Shown one piece after another: positions 16,786 to 62,627 of a DNA stretch of 64,000 nucleotides. The first letter of the stretch is position 1. Each line of letters opens with the position of its first letter. The stretch is taken from the NCBI GenBank assembly GCA_013816805.1, contig JACDDS010000005.1:124001-188000 (forward strand), given 5' to 3'. The position numbers were made by a program, and so were the translations under genes. Under the pieces are notes generated by a model. The model was not told the DNA's origin. It saw only the letters and a program-made list of their open reading frames with translations, and made no database searches. This DNA comes from Chitinophagales bacterium (lineage in GTDB: Bacteria; Bacteroidota; Bacteroidia; Chitinophagales; UBA10324).

Positions 16786-18276
16786 TTACTGCTGGTTCAT
16801 CAACTTAATCTCTACCCGTCTGTTCTTAGCACGTCCTGCAGAAGTCTTGTTATCTGCAATTGGTGTTGTTTCGCCAAACCCATGAGAAGAGAGGCGATCT
16901 GAATTTACACCTTTGCCTATAAAGTAATTCTTAACAGATGCAGCACGACGATCTGAGAGATCCATATTCTTTACATCATTGCCTACGTTATCTGTGTGCC
17001 CGTCAATTTCCCACTTAGTATCAGGATATTGTTGCATAATTTCAGCAATAATATCCAATACAGGATATGATAGCTTGGTTATGATATCTTTTCCAGTTTG
17101 GAACTGTATTGATTTAGCACTCAGGTTAATCTTTTGAATTACTTCTGGTGGAGGAAGAGGGCAACCTGCATTGGAAGCTGGACCTGCCTGGTTAGGGCAA
17201 TGATCTTTTGTATCAGGAACTCCGTCACCATCTGTATCAGGACAGCCCTGGAACTGAGCTAAGCCTTTTTGTGTAGGGCAAGCATCTTGTTTATCAGGAA
17301 CGCCGTCACCATCTGTATCAGGGCAACCCTGGAATTCAGCTAATCCTTTTTGATCCGGGCACTGATCATCAATATCGGCTACCAAATCTGCATCTCTATC
17401 AGGGCATCCTTTCATGTCAACACTCCCAGCAGCGTTAGGGCACCGGTCATCTTTATCTGCAACGCCGTCTCCATCACTATCCGGGCAACCGCTTAAACTG
17501 GCTGGCCCTGCCTGATTTGGGCAAGCATCTGTTTTATCGGGAATACCATCACCATCAGCATCGGGGCATCCCATGGTAGAAGCAGGTCCTGGCTCAGTGG
17601 GACAAGCATCCGCATCATCCTCTATGCCATCCTTATCAGTGTCTTTCTTTCCAAAACGAACCGCTACCCCTGCGGAGTGGTTCAGATAACTTTGTTTTCC
17701 AATTACATCTTTATCTCCCCCAGCAATCCATTTATAGGAAGACTGAACGAAAAAACCTACGTCTTTCCAAAACCAAAAATTAAACCCAACACCGCCATCT
17801 ATGTGAGGCCTGACATCTTTATCGGTGTTATCCAAATAAGTTCCGCCGCCTCCAACAAAAATATATGGAGCAAACCATGAGTTTTCATGAATTATATAAC
17901 CATTGTCAAACTTGTATCTAAGGTTAAGATCACCATCAGCAAAGGCACGGGCTGATGTTGTATTTTCAAATAATTTTGTTATACGAGCGCCTCCTAACTG
18001 GAGGTCAAGAGCAAGTGAAGGATTTAATGATCTGGCTATAGTAAGCTTAGCGATGGCCGGAAGCGTATTCCAGTTCTCTGTTTTAAAAAAATCGCTGAAT
18101 CCTCCAGGTTCGCTTAATCCTCCTGCACCATCCGTTTTGTTAGCGGCATTAAAATCAATGACATTCGCTCCTCCATTAATCATCCAGGGGCGCTTACTAC
18201 TCTGTGCATACATGTTCTCTAAAATAAAACATGTCATCAGCACAGTCATACAAAGTATTTTGGAAACGTTTCTCAT
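16786..18276 (-). CDS. OmpA-family outer-membrane protein with TSP3 repeats
   Basis: I place the start at 18276, where a clean signal peptide begins (MRNVSKILCMTVL to ENMYAQ); an in-frame ATG 54 bases upstream adds a non-signal leader. The protein has an N-terminal beta-barrel (about 25-215), six thrombospondin type 3 calcium-binding repeats (D-D-DG-D-x-CP pattern, about 215-375) and a C-terminal OmpA domain (IQFQTGKD to EIKLMNQQ) with the peptidoglycan-binding WEIDGHTDNVG and RRVEIK boxes. It tethers the outer membrane to peptidoglycan. Confidence 0.92.
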   Translation of the reverse strand: MRNVSKILCMTVLMTCFILENMYAQSSKRPWMINGGANVIDFNAANKTDGAGGLSEPGGFSDFFKTENWNTLPAIAKLTIARSLNPSLALDLQLGGARITKLFENTTSARAFADGDLNLRYKFDNGYIIHENSWFAPYIFVGGGGTYLDNTDKDVRPHIDGGVGFNFWFWKDVGFFVQSSYKWIAGGDKDVIGKQSYLNHSAGVAVRFGKKDTDKDGIEDDADACPTEPGPASTMGCPDADGDGIPDKTDACPNQAGPASLSGCPDSDGDGVADKDDRCPNAAGSVDMKGCPDRDADLVADIDDQCPDQKGLAEFQGCPDTDGDGVPDKQDACPTQKGLAQFQGCPDTDGDGVPDTKDHCPNQAGPASNAGCPLPPPEVIQKINLSAKSIQFQTGKDIITKLSYPVLDIIAEIMQQYPDTKWEIDGHTDNVGNDVKNMDLSDRRAASVKNYFIGKGVNSDRLSSHGFGETTPIADNKTSAGRAKNRRVEIKLMNQQ

Positions 18277-55962: not shown

Positions 55963-58900
55963 ATGTCCCGCCAGCTAATTCAGCAGTATTATACCAAGCT
56001 CGATAAGATCATTCAGTATGGAGGCATACGCAATGAAACTGCCATCCGCGGTGCGTTTCACGATCTTTTAAATCATTATGCGGAGAAGAGAAATCTGCTG
56101 GTGGTGGAAGAATGTCCGGTGCAGGGAACGAAAGGAAAAAATGTAATTCCCGATGGTGTTTTAAAAAATGCTTTCCGTCTCGACCTTGGCATCTGGGAAA
56201 GCAAGGATGAAGCGGATACACTCAACGATGAGATCGATAAGAAGCACAAAAGAGGTTATCCTTTTTATAATGCATTGTTCGAAGACAGCCGCACAGCGGT
56301 GCTCTTTCAATATGGAGAAAAAGTTCGGGAAGCAAATATCCGCGAGCCGGACGAGCTTGATAAGCTTCTTGACACCTTCCTCAATTACCGGAATGAATAC
56401 ATAGCAGATTTTGAGAAGGCGCTGGAACAATTCCGACACGACATCCCTACGATTGTAGAAACCCTGCGTGAAAAGATTGATACAGCCAGCAAGCTGAATA
56501 AAAATTTCCTTGCTGCACAAACTTCTTTTCTGGAACTCTGTAAAGCAGAGATCAATCCTGACATCACACTTGCGGACATCCGTGAGATGATGATCCAGCA
56601 CATTCTAACGAGCGACATCTTCAACAAAGTTTTTGACGATCCCGGCTTTCACAGCCATAACACGATTGCTGCCGAGCTGGAAAAACTTACCGGCATTTTG
56701 TTTTCTTATTCTGAAAAGAAGAACCTGCTGATGAGCATCGAGCATTACTACGATGCCATCAACTCTGCCGCGGCGAGCATCACCGACCATCACGAGAAGC
56801 AGAAGTTTTTGAAATCGCTCTATGAAAATTTCTACAAAGTCTATAATCCCAAAGCGGCTGATCGTCTCGGCGTGGTGTACACGCCCAATGAGATTGTGAA
56901 GTTCATGATCGAGAGCACTGACTATTTGCTCAACAGGCATTTCGGAAAAACACTCGCTGATAAAAACGTGGAGATACTCGATCCTGCTACAGGCACGGGC
57001 ACCTTCATCTGCGACATCATCGAGCACATACCCAAGCAGCAGCTGCTATACAAATACAAGAATGAGCTGCACGCCAATGAAGTGGCCATTCTTCCTTACT
57101 ATATCAGCAATCTCAACATCGAGTACACCTTTAAGCAGAAAATGGGCATGTACGAGGAGTTCACCAATCTCTGTTTTGTTGATACGCTCGACAACACGGC
57201 AGCCCTTGCGTATGCAGGCAAGCAACATTCGATGTTTGGACTGAGCAGTGAAAACACCAACCGCATCAAGCGCCAGAATGGAAAAAAAATTTCAGTCATC
57301 ATCGGCAATCCGCCTTACAATGCCAATCAGAAAAATGAAAATGAGAATAACAAGAACCGCGAGTATCCTGACATTGACAAGCGAATAAAAAATACCTACA
57401 TCGAAAATAGCACAGCGCAGAAGACCAAGATGTATGACATGTATGCTCGCTTTTATCGATGGGCTATGGATCGGATTGATCAAAATGGAGTTATTGCCTT
57501 TATAAGTAACCGAGGCTTTATTGATAAGCGTGGATATGATGGATTCAGAAAAGCTATTCAAGAGGATTTCGAAGCAGCTTATATTATTGATACAAAGAGT
57601 GACGTAAATGATAATCCTAAAATTGCTGGTACAACTCACAATGTCTTTGGAATTAGAACGGGCGTAGCGATAATGTTTTTAGTAAAAAGAGTAAGTAAAA
57701 AAGCTACTTGTACTATCAACTACATAAGCTTAAGTGATGAAGCAAGGAAAGAAGAAAAGTGGCAGTGGTTTCATGATAATCGAATAGAAAATCTTCCATT
57801 TGAAAGAATTTCTCCGGACAAGAGCAACAACTGGGTAAACATTGCTGAGAACAATTGGGACGAAATGATTCCAATTTGCTCAAAGGAAGTAAAGACAGGG
57901 AAGAGTAAGCAAGCGATATTTGATTTCTATTCACTTGGCGTTGTAACAGCGCGCGATGAATGGGTTTATGACTTTAATGAAACGACTTTAGAAAGAAAAA
58001 TTAGATTTCTAATCGACTCATACAACAAAGATGTTGCGCGCCATTATGGAAAGATAGAAAAGGGAAAAGTCAAAGACGTGGTTGACTACTCAATAAAATG
58101 GACTCGAGCGATAAAGAATGATTTAATAAAAGGCAAGAGATACAAGATTGATAATGAAAAAATCATTGACTCGAACTACCGACCCTTTGTAAAGATGAAA
58201 ATGTATTTCAGCCGAGAACTTAATGAAATGCAGAATCGAGTTCGAGAAATTTTGCCAGCAGGAACAGGGGATAATTTTTTTATTGCGTTAATGGGAAATG
58301 ACTCTCCCAAACCATTCATAGTTTTTTCTGCAGACAAAATTTTTGATTACAACGGATTAAGTCCTGCGGCAAATGGGACGAAGTGTCTTCCTCTCTACCG
58401 CTACGATTTCACCGGCAACCGAATAGAAAACGTCACCGATTGGGGCTTGGAGCAATTTAGAGAACATTATCTCAACCATGATTCAAATGATTTAAGGATT
58501 AACATGATTAAGAATAAACAAAATCAGGGTAGTCATGAAAATCCAATAAATCATGGTTCAGACATGATTAAGAATAAAGACAATCAGGGTGATCATGGAA
58601 ATCCAATGAATCATGGTTCAGACAGCATCACAAAAGAATCCATCTTCCATTACTGCTATGCCGTGCTTCACAATCCTGCTTACAGAAAAAAGTATGAGCT
58701 CAATCTCAAGCGCGAGTTTCCGCGCATTCCTTTTTACGATGACTTCTGGAAATGGAGTGCATGGGGAAAGCAGTTGATGGACCTGCACATCAACTATGAA
58801 ACAACAACGCCTTATCCCCTGAAAGAAATCACAAGTGACACGAAAGCGGAGCAAAAGAAAAAAGTAAAAGAGCTTTTTGCTAAAGTGGAAGAACCGCAAT

Positions 58901-59217
58901 CGCTCTACGCGCATAAGCCTAAAATAAAAGTGAAGCTGAAAGCCGATAAAGAATCAGGCACGATTGAGATTGATGAACTCACAATTCTCACAGGTATTCC
59001 AAAAGAAGCCTGGGAATACAAGCTCGGCAACCGCACGGCCCTCGAATGGATTCTCGATCAGTACAAAGAGAAAAAAACAAAAGACCCAACCATCGCTGAG
59101 AAGTTCAACACGTATCGCTTCGCTGATTATAAGGAAAAGGTGATTGAGTTGCTAAAAAGAGTTTGTACTGTTAGTGTGGAGACAGTGAAGATTATTGCAA
59201 AAATGTCTGAACCATGA
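55963..59217 (+). CDS. Single-chain restriction-modification enzyme (type IIG / type ISP-like)
   Basis: A 1084-residue protein that both cuts and methylates DNA. The N-terminal PD-(D/E)XK nuclease has D64 (VIPDG), D74 and E79-S-K81 (DLGIWESK). A helical spacer (about 130-300) leads to an N6-adenine methyltransferase with motif I DPATGTGTF (340-348) and motif IV NPPY (449-452). The C-terminus (about 560-1084) is a type ISP-like specificity domain (YRYDFTGNRIENVTDWGL). It lacks the helicase of true type ISP enzymes. The 57.4-58.4 kb part is much more AT-rich than both sides, and two 60-bp repeats lie within the gene. Confidence 0.85.
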   Translation: MSRQLIQQYYTKLDKIIQYGGIRNETAIRGAFHDLLNHYAEKRNLLVVEECPVQGTKGKNVIPDGVLKNAFRLDLGIWESKDEADTLNDEIDKKHKRGYPFYNALFEDSRTAVLFQYGEKVREANIREPDELDKLLDTFLNYRNEYIADFEKALEQFRHDIPTIVETLREKIDTASKLNKNFLAAQTSFLELCKAEINPDITLADIREMMIQHILTSDIFNKVFDDPGFHSHNTIAAELEKLTGILFSYSEKKNLLMSIEHYYDAINSAAASITDHHEKQKFLKSLYENFYKVYNPKAADRLGVVYTPNEIVKFMIESTDYLLNRHFGKTLADKNVEILDPATGTGTFICDIIEHIPKQQLLYKYKNELHANEVAILPYYISNLNIEYTFKQKMGMYEEFTNLCFVDTLDNTAALAYAGKQHSMFGLSSENTNRIKRQNGKKISVIIGNPPYNANQKNENENNKNREYPDIDKRIKNTYIENSTAQKTKMYDMYARFYRWAMDRIDQNGVIAFISNRGFIDKRGYDGFRKAIQEDFEAAYIIDTKSDVNDNPKIAGTTHNVFGIRTGVAIMFLVKRVSKKATCTINYISLSDEARKEEKWQWFHDNRIENLPFERISPDKSNNWVNIAENNWDEMIPICSKEVKTGKSKQAIFDFYSLGVVTARDEWVYDFNETTLERKIRFLIDSYNKDVARHYGKIEKGKVKDVVDYSIKWTRAIKNDLIKGKRYKIDNEKIIDSNYRPFVKMKMYFSRELNEMQNRVREILPAGTGDNFFIALMGNDSPKPFIVFSADKIFDYNGLSPAANGTKCLPLYRYDFTGNRIENVTDWGLEQFREHYLNHDSNDLRINMIKNKQNQGSHENPINHGSDMIKNKDNQGDHGNPMNHGSDSITKESIFHYCYAVLHNPAYRKKYELNLKREFPRIPFYDDFWKWSAWGKQLMDLHINYETTTPYPLKEITSDTKAEQKKKVKELFAKVEEPQSLYAHKPKIKVKLKADKESGTIEIDELTILTGIPKEAWEYKLGNRTALEWILDQYKEKKTKDPTIAEKFNTYRFADYKEKVIELLKRVCTVSVETVKIIAKMSEP
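58474..58623. repeat. Repeat element inside the RM gene with 60-bp tandem copies
   Basis: A left end, AACCATGATTCAAATGATTT, starts at 58474. Two tandem 60-bp units follow (58501-58560 and 58561-58620, 53 of 60 bases identical), each running into GGTTCAGAC (58555-58563, 58615-58623). They keep the reading frame and add an N-, H-, G- and D-rich low-complexity stretch to the protein. The ends match the element at 59205. Confidence 0.85.
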
Positions 59218-59321
59218 TTTGAAGGATGAAAAGATTACCATGATTAAAAAAGACTGAAGGTTGGACACATGCTGGTAAAAAAATCAAGTAATCCTCTAAT
59301 CCTTTCCATTAAGGTTCAGAC
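59205..59321. repeat. 117-bp inverted-repeat element at the RM stop codon
   Basis: GTCTGAACC (59205-59213) and GGTTCAGAC (59313-59321) are perfect 9-bp inverted ends; with gaps ignored, 19 of the outer 25 positions match. The left end supplies the last codons (S-E-P) and stop of the RM gene. It has no gene, and resembles a MITE-like or REP-like repeat. Confidence 0.75.
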
Positions 59322-59323
59322 AA
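59291..59323. repeat. 33-bp direct repeat, left copy flanking the GxxExxY gene
   Basis: This stretch (the right end of the 117-bp element plus two bases) is repeated at 59747-59779 with 30 of 33 bases identical. The two copies lie 456 bases apart and bracket the GxxExxY gene. Confidence 0.85.
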
Positions 59324-59370: not shown

Positions 59371-59798
59371 ATGAAATATGAAGACTTAACCCGAAGATTA
59401 TTCGAGCGGCAATGAAAGTTCATTCTTCATTGGGAAATGGTTTTCAGGAGGTTATTTATCAGCGGGCAATGGAAATTGAAATGCCCTTTGAGGAACTTCA
59501 ATTCGAGCGGGAGAAAGAAATACCGATCTATTACCGAGATATTCAAATAGTTACACGCCGTGTGGATTTTTTTGTAGAGGGTTTAATTATGGTTGAATTG
59601 AAAGCGCTAACTCATCTGGAAGATGTTCACCTGGCACAGGCAATGAATTATCTTGAAGCATATCAAATGGAAATTGGTTTACTGATAAATTTCGGAGCAA
59701 AAAGTCTCGACTTTAAGCGGGTACACAACAACAAGCTAATCAACTCATCCTCTAATCCATTCAATCAAGGTTCAGACAAAGGAGAGTTACTACGGTAA
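59371..59798 (+). pseudogene. GxxExxY-family PD-(D/E)XK protein, frameshifted at the 5' end
   Basis: The frame from 59412 encodes 128 residues with the GxxExxY motif (G10-F-Q-E13-V-I-Y16) and a nuclease-like D52...E62-L-K64. The family normally begins MKYEDLT...IIxAAMxVH. That start exists at 59371 but is one base out of frame: MKYEDLTRR reads into a stop, while the next frame gives IIRAAMKVHSS. One missing base near 59396-59400 explains it. Translation could restart at 59412. The C-terminal 15 or so codons read through a repeat end. Confidence 0.7.
59747..59779. repeat. 33-bp direct repeat, right copy inside the GxxExxY 3' end
   Basis: Copy of 59291-59323 with three mismatches. It forms the last in-frame codons (SSSNPFNQGSDK) of the GxxExxY gene. 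Confidence 0.85.
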
Positions 59799-60608: not shown

Positions 60609-61586
60609 TTACATTGATATACCTTTTTCAGCACTTCTTCTGGTTTTCCAGCGTCGTACCGGAGCACATCGGGGACACCATCTACCATTAATAATAGCGT
60701 TAGGCTTTGCCAGCCATTCATGGTTTTGTTCACATTTCCATCGGAGTTTGGTTTTGTTATTTGTATACGTTGAGGATAGACAAAGACCACCTCTTTTTTT
60801 TGCCAGATCCTGCATATCATGTATGGTATGCTTCTTCTTGCCTGCGCAGTATGGGCACCAGGATTGGTTAAAAATGATATTTACCGGTTTCGCTTCCCAC
60901 GTATGCCCGTTCCTGCATTGCCATTTCAGCGGAGTATGTGCTCGGCTATACTTTAAAGAGAGACAAACGCCGCCCCTGTCTTTAGCAACGCGCTGCATTT
61001 CAGCGATAGAATGATTATGTCTTCCGGCACAATAGGGGCACCATGTTCCTCTCTTAACGGCAATGGGTATAGCATCCCAGATATGACCGTCTTCGCATTG
61101 CCAAGTGATTTTGGTGTCGTTGGTTACAAATACTGATGACAGTAGTTTTCCTCCTCTTTGCCTCGCAATCTCCTGATATACCTTAATATCAGTTCTGCGT
61201 TTGTCTGCCGCAACCCGATCAGCACATCGTTTGCACCACCTACCCTTCTGTATTTGCTTCGGAGTTGTGCTCCAGTAGTGTCCCCGTTCGCATTTAAAGT
61301 GTAACTTGGTTGTGAAGGTTATATAACGGTTTGACAGGCAAGTTCCGCCCCTGCTTTCCGCAACGGCTTTTAAGTATTGTAATTTTTCCTGCTTCCACTC
61401 GTCTTTAGCGCATTGACTACACCAACCACCTTGCCTTACAATTTCAAAGGTTCTTAAAAAAACATGTCCGTTTTCGCATCTCCACGTGAGTGCTGTTGTT
61501 GGATTAACATATTCCTGGCTCAGACATTTTCCACCTAAGGCCTGAGCATAGAATTTCATATCACTAATATCATAGAGATGTGCCAT
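60609..61586 (-). CDS. Protein of five tandem treble-clef zinc-finger modules
   Basis: A 325-residue protein consisting of five near-equal modules of about 60 residues. Each has C-x3-H in CENGH-type text and W-C-x2-C: C37/H41/C56/C59, C99/H103/C118/C121, C164/H168/C183/C186, C224/H228/C244/C247 and C285/H289/C304/C307. Modules start with RGG-x-CLS-type text. The fold resembles the zinc-ribbon/treble-clef repeats annotated PF14311 (DUF4379). Such proteins are usually small parts of mobile or restriction islands. The cell role is unknown; DNA or RNA binding is an inference. Confidence 0.75.
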   Translation of the reverse strand: MAHLYDISDMKFYAQALGGKCLSQEYVNPTTALTWRCENGHVFLRTFEIVRQGGWCSQCAKDEWKQEKLQYLKAVAESRGGTCLSNRYITFTTKLHFKCERGHYWSTTPKQIQKGRWCKRCADRVAADKRRTDIKVYQEIARQRGGKLLSSVFVTNDTKITWQCEDGHIWDAIPIAVKRGTWCPYCAGRHNHSIAEMQRVAKDRGGVCLSLKYSRAHTPLKWQCRNGHTWEAKPVNIIFNQSWCPYCAGKKKHTIHDMQDLAKKRGGLCLSSTYTNNKTKLRWKCEQNHEWLAKPNAIINGRWCPRCAPVRRWKTRRSAEKGISM

Positions 61587-62255: not shown

Positions 62256-62513
62256 TTAATCTTGGTATTTCTTCCGTATTAATGAGTGAATAAATTCCCG
62301 CCCAACACCCGATTTTAAAAATTTTTCTCTTTGCATTGCGTGCTTTTTATTGTCATATTCTTCTGTTATTAAAACTTCCCATGGTCTATATCTTATCGCC
62401 CAATCTTTGGTGCCCAGTTCATTATGTGATTTTAGTCTTGCCATTAAATCTGAAGTGAAACCTGTATAGGTTTTGTGATACTGCCTCGAAAAAAGAACAT
62501 ATACTGTAAACAC
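62256..62513 (-). CDS. GIY-YIG family endonuclease (about 85 aa)
   Basis: A small GIY-YIG nuclease of the UPF0213-like, single-domain type. FTVYVLFSRQYHKTYTGFTS is the GIY-YIG region (the YIG position reads YTG), followed by the R and H of ARLKSHN and the catalytic-type E of AMQREKFLKSG. Start codon is uncertain: GTG at 62513 fits the family; TTG at 62522 is possible. It lies between the tRNA-fMet gene and a copy of that tRNA's 3' end. Cleavage of the tRNA locus would explain the arrangement but is inferred. Confidence 0.8.
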   Translation of the reverse strand: MFTVYVLFSRQYHKTYTGFTSDLMARLKSHNELGTKDWAIRYRPWEVLITEEYDNKKHAMQREKFLKSGVGREFIHSLIRKKYQD

Positions 62514-62523
62514 AATCCACAAT

Positions 62524-62552: not shown

Positions 62553-62555
62553 TTG

Positions 62556-62627
<72 letters not shown>

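Follow-up and report, generated by a model that had tools for sequence, protein, structure and literature searches.

The window, that is the whole 64,000-nucleotide stretch that was analysed, contains a single-chain restriction-modification (RM) gene and a gene of the GxxExxY nuclease family on the same strand, with complete or partial copies of a palindromic sequence inside the RM gene, at its end and at the 3' end of the nuclease gene (Table 1). Adjoining this locus on the reverse strand is a gene for a 325-amino acid protein with repeated DUF4379 treble-clef zinc fingers (60609-61586). A small ORF (62256-62522), which we take to resemble a GIY-YIG endonuclease, is located beside a tRNA-Met gene (62555-62627).

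Table 1. Features of the restriction-modification and GxxExxY locus in window coordinates
Feature	Position	Strand	Details
RM gene, type ISP / DrdV-like, single-chain	55963..59217	+	1084 codons, open frame
Complete palindromic element, type A, TATCTCAACCATGATT..AATCATGGTTCAGACA	58468..58564	+	Inverted repeats I4/I5; end motif as in dispersed copies
In-frame insert relative to DrdV, 48 codons	58477..58620	+	Residues 839-886, in specificity-domain linker
Second 60-bp unit, tandem duplication of the element's right part	58565..58624 (TRF register 58562-58621)	+	Junctions share ACA
Second complete palindrome, TGTCTGAACC..GGTTCAGACA	59204..59322	+	Inverted repeat I1; folding z -2.6
GxxExxY-family nuclease gene (TIGR04256 / PDDEXK_3)	59412..59798	+	Pfam and TIGR04256 match
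Right half of element at 3' end of GxxExxY gene, closing the nuclease unit	59738..59779	+	Direct repeat D4, inverted repeat I2

The restriction-modification gene and its insert

The RM gene product matched the Pfam families ISP_coupler, N6_Mtase, Eco57I and Type_ISP_C, the coupler, N6-methyltransferase and ISP C-terminal specificity domains of type ISP enzymes thus being present in a single chain, and PADLOC assigned the gene to REase_MTase_IIG. Its nearest solved relative was PDB 7lo5, titled a DrdV-DNA complex, and DrdV is presumably classed as type IIL. The window protein shares its domain order with DrdV-like or type ISP enzymes and resembles them along most of its length, whereas DrdV lacks the 48-residue insert. 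The 7lo5 alignment ended at query residue 838 and restarted at 887, while the chain residues on either side of the gap, 840 and 841, are contiguous, indicating a clean insertion, and the tandem array lies inside the Type_ISP_C match (residues 651-1063). These results agree with the first-pass annotation, which had described an N/H/G/D-rich in-frame insert between two conserved specificity blocks of a gene whose frame is otherwise open. No stretch of the viral contigs was matched by the RM protein.

Homologues at E<=1e-100 were found in 11 of 298 genomes of the order, the window's own included. Eight homologues were aligned, five being full-length members of the same subfamily (L192-L195 and L197) and three plasmid-borne (the best 3 of 161 plasmid records with a match), while a partial gene (L196) and distant genes (L198-L201) were excluded. 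The linker from TDWGLEQF to IFHY was 21 residues long in four of the eight and 22, 27, 47 and 65 in the others, compared with 69 in the window. The insert sequence was absent from all eight and from 7lo5, and the long linkers of L192 and L193 consisted of unrelated sequence. As linker length differs among homologues, the place of insertion tolerates length change, and the location of the insert in such a linker suggests that the enzyme is probably still active.

Tandem Repeats Finder reported the array at 58502-58624 (period 60, 2.0 copies, 90% matches, no indels) with a score of 204, second highest among the ten tandem-repeat rows in the window. The highest score (250) belonged to two 81-bp copies at 17193-17352. 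The presence of two 60-bp units in frame in the RM gene, as previously noted, was borne out by this program and by the 1084-codon ORF. Direct comparison of 58502-58561 with 58562-58621 gave 54 identical positions of 60, so that the high likeness of the units held while the earlier count of 53 did not. The six differences fall in four codons, all of which change the residue, giving no sign of constraint on the peptide and indicating that the duplication is not recent. The interval 58501-58620 given in the first-pass annotation describes the tandem part adequately and falls short of the whole element, which starts near 58468.

Unit 1 and the bases before it form an imperfect palindrome (58468-58564) terminating in GGTTCAGACA and read in the RM frame as YLNHDSND..NPINHGSD, and unit 2 repeats its right part; the sequence is not a MINISATELLITE. 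Folded as single-stranded DNA, the element had a z score of -3.8 compared with -0.4 for the tandem stretch alone. The left end of the second palindrome reads TCT GAA CCA TGA and supplies the last residues of the RM protein, SEP, and the stop codon. A Methylase_S gene at another locus (L211) is likewise ended by a palindrome. At up to three mismatches the end motif occurred nine times in the window, whereas 100 shuffles averaged 0.76 occurrences and never exceeded 3. The 16-bp end motif at up to two mismatches had five copies in the window's own genome, all at this locus and in both orientations, against one for the reversed control. An RNA element was considered and rejected, the one Rfam match reaching 23.6 bits (E 0.045) where the gathering score is 86.

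Dispersed copies and in-frame insertions

The motif at one mismatch gave 85 matches, compared with 3 for the reversed motif, and was present in 24 of 99 genomes including the window's own. No second genome of the window's genus was among those returned. A paired-end scan of named assemblies returned at least 120 stretches, and 102 of the 120 listed had a GATT interior. The pattern consisted of 9+9 fixed bases with 31 spacings and was run over 257 billion bases, for which an estimated 116 or so chance matches were expected; the pattern alone therefore proves little and the evidence rests on the GATT interior. Organisms named for 80 of the 120 listed stretches included Bacteroidota, Leptospiraceae, Nitrospirae, Planctomycetes, Poribacteria, Thiotrichaceae, Ignavibacteria and Patescibacteria. 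The element is about 95-135 bp long with ends (A)ATTGTCTGAAC..GTTCAGACAAT(T) and arms in which GATT recurs about every 9 bp. Among 110 distinct elements GATT/GATG spacings of 9 bp were found 329 times, of 8 bp 116 times and of 10 bp 48 times, and the ends extended to AAT immediately followed by TGTCTGAAC. No target duplication of at least 5 bp was found in these 110 elements, and one of 4 bp was found in three compared with 0.69 expected. A second kind of element with TGTCTGAAC ends and the interior GAAAA..GTCATTTCGA or similar..GAAATCT was seen in other phyla (L091, L094, L097, L098, L137 and L141). In viral contigs there were four stretches with paired ends, of which only L190 was GATT-like.

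Most ORFs flanking the dispersed elements belonged to ordinary families. The commonest family was PDDEXK_3, with six among the 150 of 183 flanking ORFs that were scanned, while among the distal ORFs of these loci (150 of 211 scanned) it was outside the top 25. A GxxExxY gene was located within 500 bp of the element in seven of the 120 listed loci and farther off in one more, the other 113 of the 120 having none within 500 bp. Among the families recurring at elements, seven of eight GxxExxY members were 0-208 bp away, and GxxExxY was the only small gene family recurring right beside elements, together with two families of longer proteins, one of them TIR-like. At loci L067-L186, TIR_2 and Lcl_C were found beside elements in 3 and 4 of 150 ORFs, and the TIR-like family was present in eight of the 120 listed loci. 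RM genes as general targets of the element were considered and rejected, as Methylase_S appeared just twice among the same 150 (of 183) flanking ORFs, and the link to RM systems is through GxxExxY neighbourhoods and the in-frame cases. Motif and GxxExxY gene co-occurred across the 99 genomes to a moderate degree only (21 of 24 genomes with the motif compared with 43 of 75 without, Fisher p 0.007). One genome (G059) had 16 motif matches, neither of its two GxxExxY genes being close to one.

Copies of the element were found both between genes and in frame within them. Beyond the window three further in-frame copies were identified, in the HsdM genes of G080 and G040 and in a DNA methylase gene of G371. 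The two HsdM genes are orthologous, each with N6_Mtase and HsdM_N matches, and carry their inserts at two different sites, A and B. Where G080 has INSLNYDS..SSDSFTK at site A, a 93%-identical orthologue (L219) has LNGGTSPFTK, and at site B the G080 gene is empty while that of G040 has the insert. The net gain was 36 codons in G080 and 34 in G040 for palindromes of 121 and 127 bp, so that the target has lost 13 and 25 bp, respectively; in the window, 157 bp of element account for a gain of 144, again a loss of 13 bp of target. The G040 gene (L223) has a different in-frame insert, LTPGPSPNGEGG, at site A, where its G080 orthologue has the type-A palindrome, and judged from these sequences site A is a shared permissive site for different repeats. 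The G371 gene, with a match to N6_N4_Mtase, can be read as a type III Mod. All four in-frame host genes seen (window, G080, G040 and G371) thus encode DNA methyltransferases, and a GxxExxY gene lies within 3 kb of each.

A profile of three insert peptides matched 13 places at E<=0.01 in 11 of 395 genomes of the phylum, four of the 13 being in frames longer than 500 codons, namely two in the window gene, one in the G080 HsdM and one in the 935-codon frame of G371. The intact end TGTCTGAACCATGATT has a single stop-free frame, TGT CTG AAC CAT GAT or CLNHD, which is used by all four in-frame copies. Such a copy within a gene can accordingly persist in no other frame, and its net effect on length must be a multiple of three. 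Of the 110 elements, 12 were fully open in frame 0, 10 were so in frame 2 and none in frame 1, since other ends differ. A scan of 143 intervals for spanning ORFs found six, of which the window and L020 alone had the GATT interior and the other four look like chance. The in-frame copy of L013 lies outside the spanning-ORF pattern and was found from reading the locus sequence.

The GxxExxY nuclease and its repeats

The window GxxExxY protein scored 117.7 bits against TIGR04256, for which the curated cut-off is 35, and is a member of that family. Compared with A5, the usual N-terminal residues are encoded upstream but one base out of frame, and this copy may therefore be decayed or N-terminally shortened. 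The protein had no PADLOC match at E<=0.001, and the family had no sequence relative in the PDB at E<=1. A structure model was built from the L147 protein with a seven-row alignment (mean pLDDT 88.0, pTM 0.83; the other four models ranged from 68.3 to 48.4) and shows a PD-(D/E)XK fold. Foldseek matched the model best to 4ic1 (SSO0001), LHK-Exo, lambda exonuclease and MGME1, with no match reaching E<=0.001, and VIA-align gave 4ic1 a Z of 9.5 over 102 residues at 4.1 A, followed by SwaI at 8.0. We take 4ic1 to be a Cas4 protein, and the conserved AQALNYLEAY of GxxExxY resembles the QxxxY motif of RecB/Cas4 nucleases. On the model, GxxExxY is predicted to be a Cas4-like nuclease of the PD-(D/E)XK group.

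Other settings of the gene were also observed. At L006 (C9; 1462-1872 and 1913-3340), the window's own genome has a second GxxExxY gene just downstream of an HsdR-like gene (match to EcoEI_R_C), with an apparent diverged copy of the tail of the HsdR-like gene on its other side. An in-frame fusion with GxxExxY ahead of a RecQ helicase is encoded by 883-codon frames of G321 (L337) and G347 (L338), the former matching TIGR04256 and TIGR01389 and the latter read from sequence, and a third 883-codon frame is found in G331. The sole viral GxxExxY locus found (L304, an IMG/VR contig, 1495-1923) is located between an N6_Mtase gene, the last residues of which are supplied by TIR-like sequence, and a Methylase_S gene.

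GxxExxY genes were found in 64 of the 99 genomes among the matches listed. For the flank analysis 119 loci were assembled (2, plus 6 from the motif search, 1 from the L219 search, and 30 and 80 from the GxxExxY search of the 99 genomes), comprising 121 genes, 117 of them with enough flanking sequence and one entered twice (L053 and L227). The 300 bases upstream of each gene were aligned locally to the reverse complement of the 300 bases downstream and compared with 100 Markov shuffles. Seventy-two of 117 genes scored beyond all 100 shuffles (71 of 116 without the double entry; 70 of 110 without the seven loci from the motif and L219 searches), and 45 of 117 showed no such repeat. A score of at least 45 was reached by 62 of 117 own pairs compared with 12 of 581 mismatched pairs. 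Under the same test 5 of 173 control ORFs passed, these being from the paired-end-scan loci of other organisms, as did 1 of 21 ORFs beside GxxExxY genes. A second sample was made up of two named plasmids and the top-scoring loci from another 30 genomes of the phylum; inverted repeats were found at 24 of its 33 genes, or at 24 of 31 without the plasmids. The GxxExxY genes of both samples were located with a single profile grown from the window's own gene. Among seven genes beside the type-A motif, L018 and L028 passed the strictest flank cut while L019, L021, L030, L033 and L223 did not. GxxExxY units with ends like those of the gene-less elements were found at L018, L033, L063 and in the window, and one-gene units are about 460-580 bp long in the window, L018 and L033. 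In the 150 of 224 neighbouring ORFs scanned, Methylase_S was the commonest family (6), with HSDR_N (3), ResIII (3), EcoR124_C (2) and N6_Mtase (2) also present among mostly ordinary families, a count that stands without a matching control set.

The arms were first inspected and then sorted by regular expressions into six types: A, TGTCTGAACC; B, TCTGAATC; C, CACAAAG/CGCAGAG; D, CACATAG; E, ACGGATT; and F, CACGAATT. On a tree of 107 columns for the 66 genes that were typed and had at most 2 of 100 shuffles reaching their score, repeat type required seven changes (the least possible being five) compared with 33.8 when shuffled, and none of 200 shuffles was as low. Host family required 38 changes (least 14) compared with 45.0 on the same tree, again with none of 200 shuffles as low. 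When the second sample was added with a slightly wider type C pattern (91 genes), repeat type took 10 changes compared with 40.4. The nuclease tree is matched much more closely by repeat type than by host family, and several arm types can be found in one genome (e.g. G013, G074, G080, G092 and G098). As the types were set after the arms had been seen, a label-free test was added, in which arm similarity rose with protein similarity (r 0.22; 96 genes, 4545 pairs) and none of 999 permutations gave as high a value.

Origin of the repeat and comparison with known systems

We consider the window repeat, with a probability of roughly 0.8, to be a dispersed palindrome inserted in frame and then partially duplicated, the element belonging to the neighbouring GxxExxY nuclease. 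It is probably a hairpin-like mobile sequence that landed in the gene with the reading frame kept. A small palindromic element would have been inserted in frame into the RM gene, its right part would then have been duplicated in tandem across a 3-bp match (ACA), and the inserted copy would add a flexible N/H/S/D-rich loop to the host protein. The nuclease may recognise and cut its own palindrome, perhaps as a hairpin or cruciform, with resection and repair pasting copies at the cost of small target losses. Cutting followed by resection and repair would account better than classical transposition for the 13-25 bp of lost target and the lack of target duplication. Across the family, similar repeats accompany related nucleases, so that nuclease and repeats behave as one unit and the gene-less palindromes as derived copies. 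Alongside the observed anatomy, dispersal, in-frame survival, nuclease-repeat linkage and co-variation, we infer that the palindromes are mobilised by GxxExxY. More tentatively, and with somewhat greater doubt than belief, GxxExxY genes and their clade-specific, 9-bp periodic inverted repeats might constitute a large class of minimal mobile elements that has gone unrecognised and is moved by a Cas4-like PD-(D/E)XK nuclease rather than a transposase, with gene-less palindromes as progeny and peptides added to host proteins.

The first-pass annotation had proposed that slippage of the array could alter domain spacing as in type I HsdS subunits. A slippage-prone in-frame repeat that tunes DNA-recognition spacing and so switches specificity would be in keeping with a unit length that is a multiple of three, the position of the array within the specificity domain and the varied linker lengths of the eight homologues. 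Such an array has become very unlikely, as there are just two copies, 10% diverged and so without recent homogenisation, the longer linkers of L192 and L193 are unrelated sequence, and the unit is half of a dispersed palindrome rather than a free-standing minisatellite. It is harder still to credit that the loop is a low-complexity feature of this lineage which was duplicated locally by chance and has no relation to mobile sequence: the site is a permissive linker in homologues, as this would predict, but the 16-bp end motif recurs five times at the locus in both orientations and also in other genomes, and orthologous HsdM genes have the same peptide family at different sites.

Other accounts accept the palindromes as dispersed and assign GxxExxY a different part. 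The palindromes could be spread by a transposase acting in trans, by short-repeat recombination or by hairpin replication errors, with GxxExxY a passenger or a domesticated binder. The 113 of 120 listed stretches without a GxxExxY gene within 500 bp, the missing target duplications and the nuclease-like rather than transposase-like nature of GxxExxY are consistent with this. We nevertheless regard it as rather unlikely, given the much closer agreement of the nuclease tree with repeat type than with host family, the inverted flanking arms of 72 of 117 GxxExxY genes and the lack of any other small family among those recurring right beside elements. Methylase_S as the commonest neighbour family of GxxExxY genes and the methyltransferase identity of all four in-frame hosts could instead reflect a defence or counter-defence module at RM loci, the methyltransferase inserts being by-products. 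This is improbable in view of the mostly ordinary families beside both GxxExxY genes and dispersed copies and the lack of a PADLOC match at E<=0.001 for the window protein.

With the element as a mobile palindrome, a presumed minisatellite becomes the trace of a dispersed element, and GxxExxY, a protein family named only for a motif, gains a testable role. If GxxExxY nucleases do mobilise their palindromes, these units would be among the smallest self-moving elements known, with a restriction-enzyme-like nuclease doing the work of a transposase. On the wider proposal, gene-less progeny of such units would make up much of the dispersed palindromic DNA of Bacteroidota and of several further phyla, and the elements would repeatedly add peptides to host proteins, including RM-system DNA methyltransferases. 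In-frame copies amount to natural loop insertions in RM enzymes and make insert tolerance directly measurable. An association of GxxExxY with repeats was not found in those parts of the open-access literature that were covered, subscription journals and preprints being outside this scope, and it may have been described elsewhere. A literature search by sequence words of the element gave nothing useful.

Rickettsia palindromic elements (RPE) occur in different hosts from the window element and presumably differ from it in sequence. They are palindromes of 105-146 bp that occur in intergenic DNA as well as in frame within protein-coding genes, and an RPE-bearing guanylate kinase was made and was active with a changed substrate affinity (PMC2229807; PMC10969869). 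The window element has a cognate nuclease gene beside it, whereas the RPE passages of these sources mention none (PMC2229807; PMC10969869). The four in-frame hosts seen for window-type elements were all DNA methyltransferases, unlike those of RPE. Bacterial MITEs such as Correia and ERIC are described as short, with inverted ends and many copies, some of their ORFs fusing in frame (PMC2229807). Window-type elements are likewise short with terminal inverted repeats and no gene of their own (as in the 102 of 120 listed stretches with a GATT interior), and have a gene-carrying partner with the same ends, the putative mobiliser GxxExxY. They depart from MITEs in the absence of target duplication among the 110 elements and in that no IS transposase partner was seen for them.

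The REP/RAYT system has a gene between two inverted palindromes with which it co-evolves, together with dispersed gene-less palindromes (PMC2817692). GxxExxY genes are similarly found between inverted palindromes (72 of 117 compared with 5 of 173 controls, and so not all genes), and palindrome and nuclease gene co-vary. RAYTs are IS200/IS605-related tyrosine transposases, whereas GxxExxY is a predicted PD-(D/E)XK nuclease and thus not a RAYT. The GxxExxY palindromes are also longer than REP, have 9-bp periodic motifs and occur in assemblies of several phyla. By analogy, the GxxExxY unit resembles REP/RAYT with a Cas4-like nuclease in the place of the transposase, and GxxExxY may work as a RAYT does.
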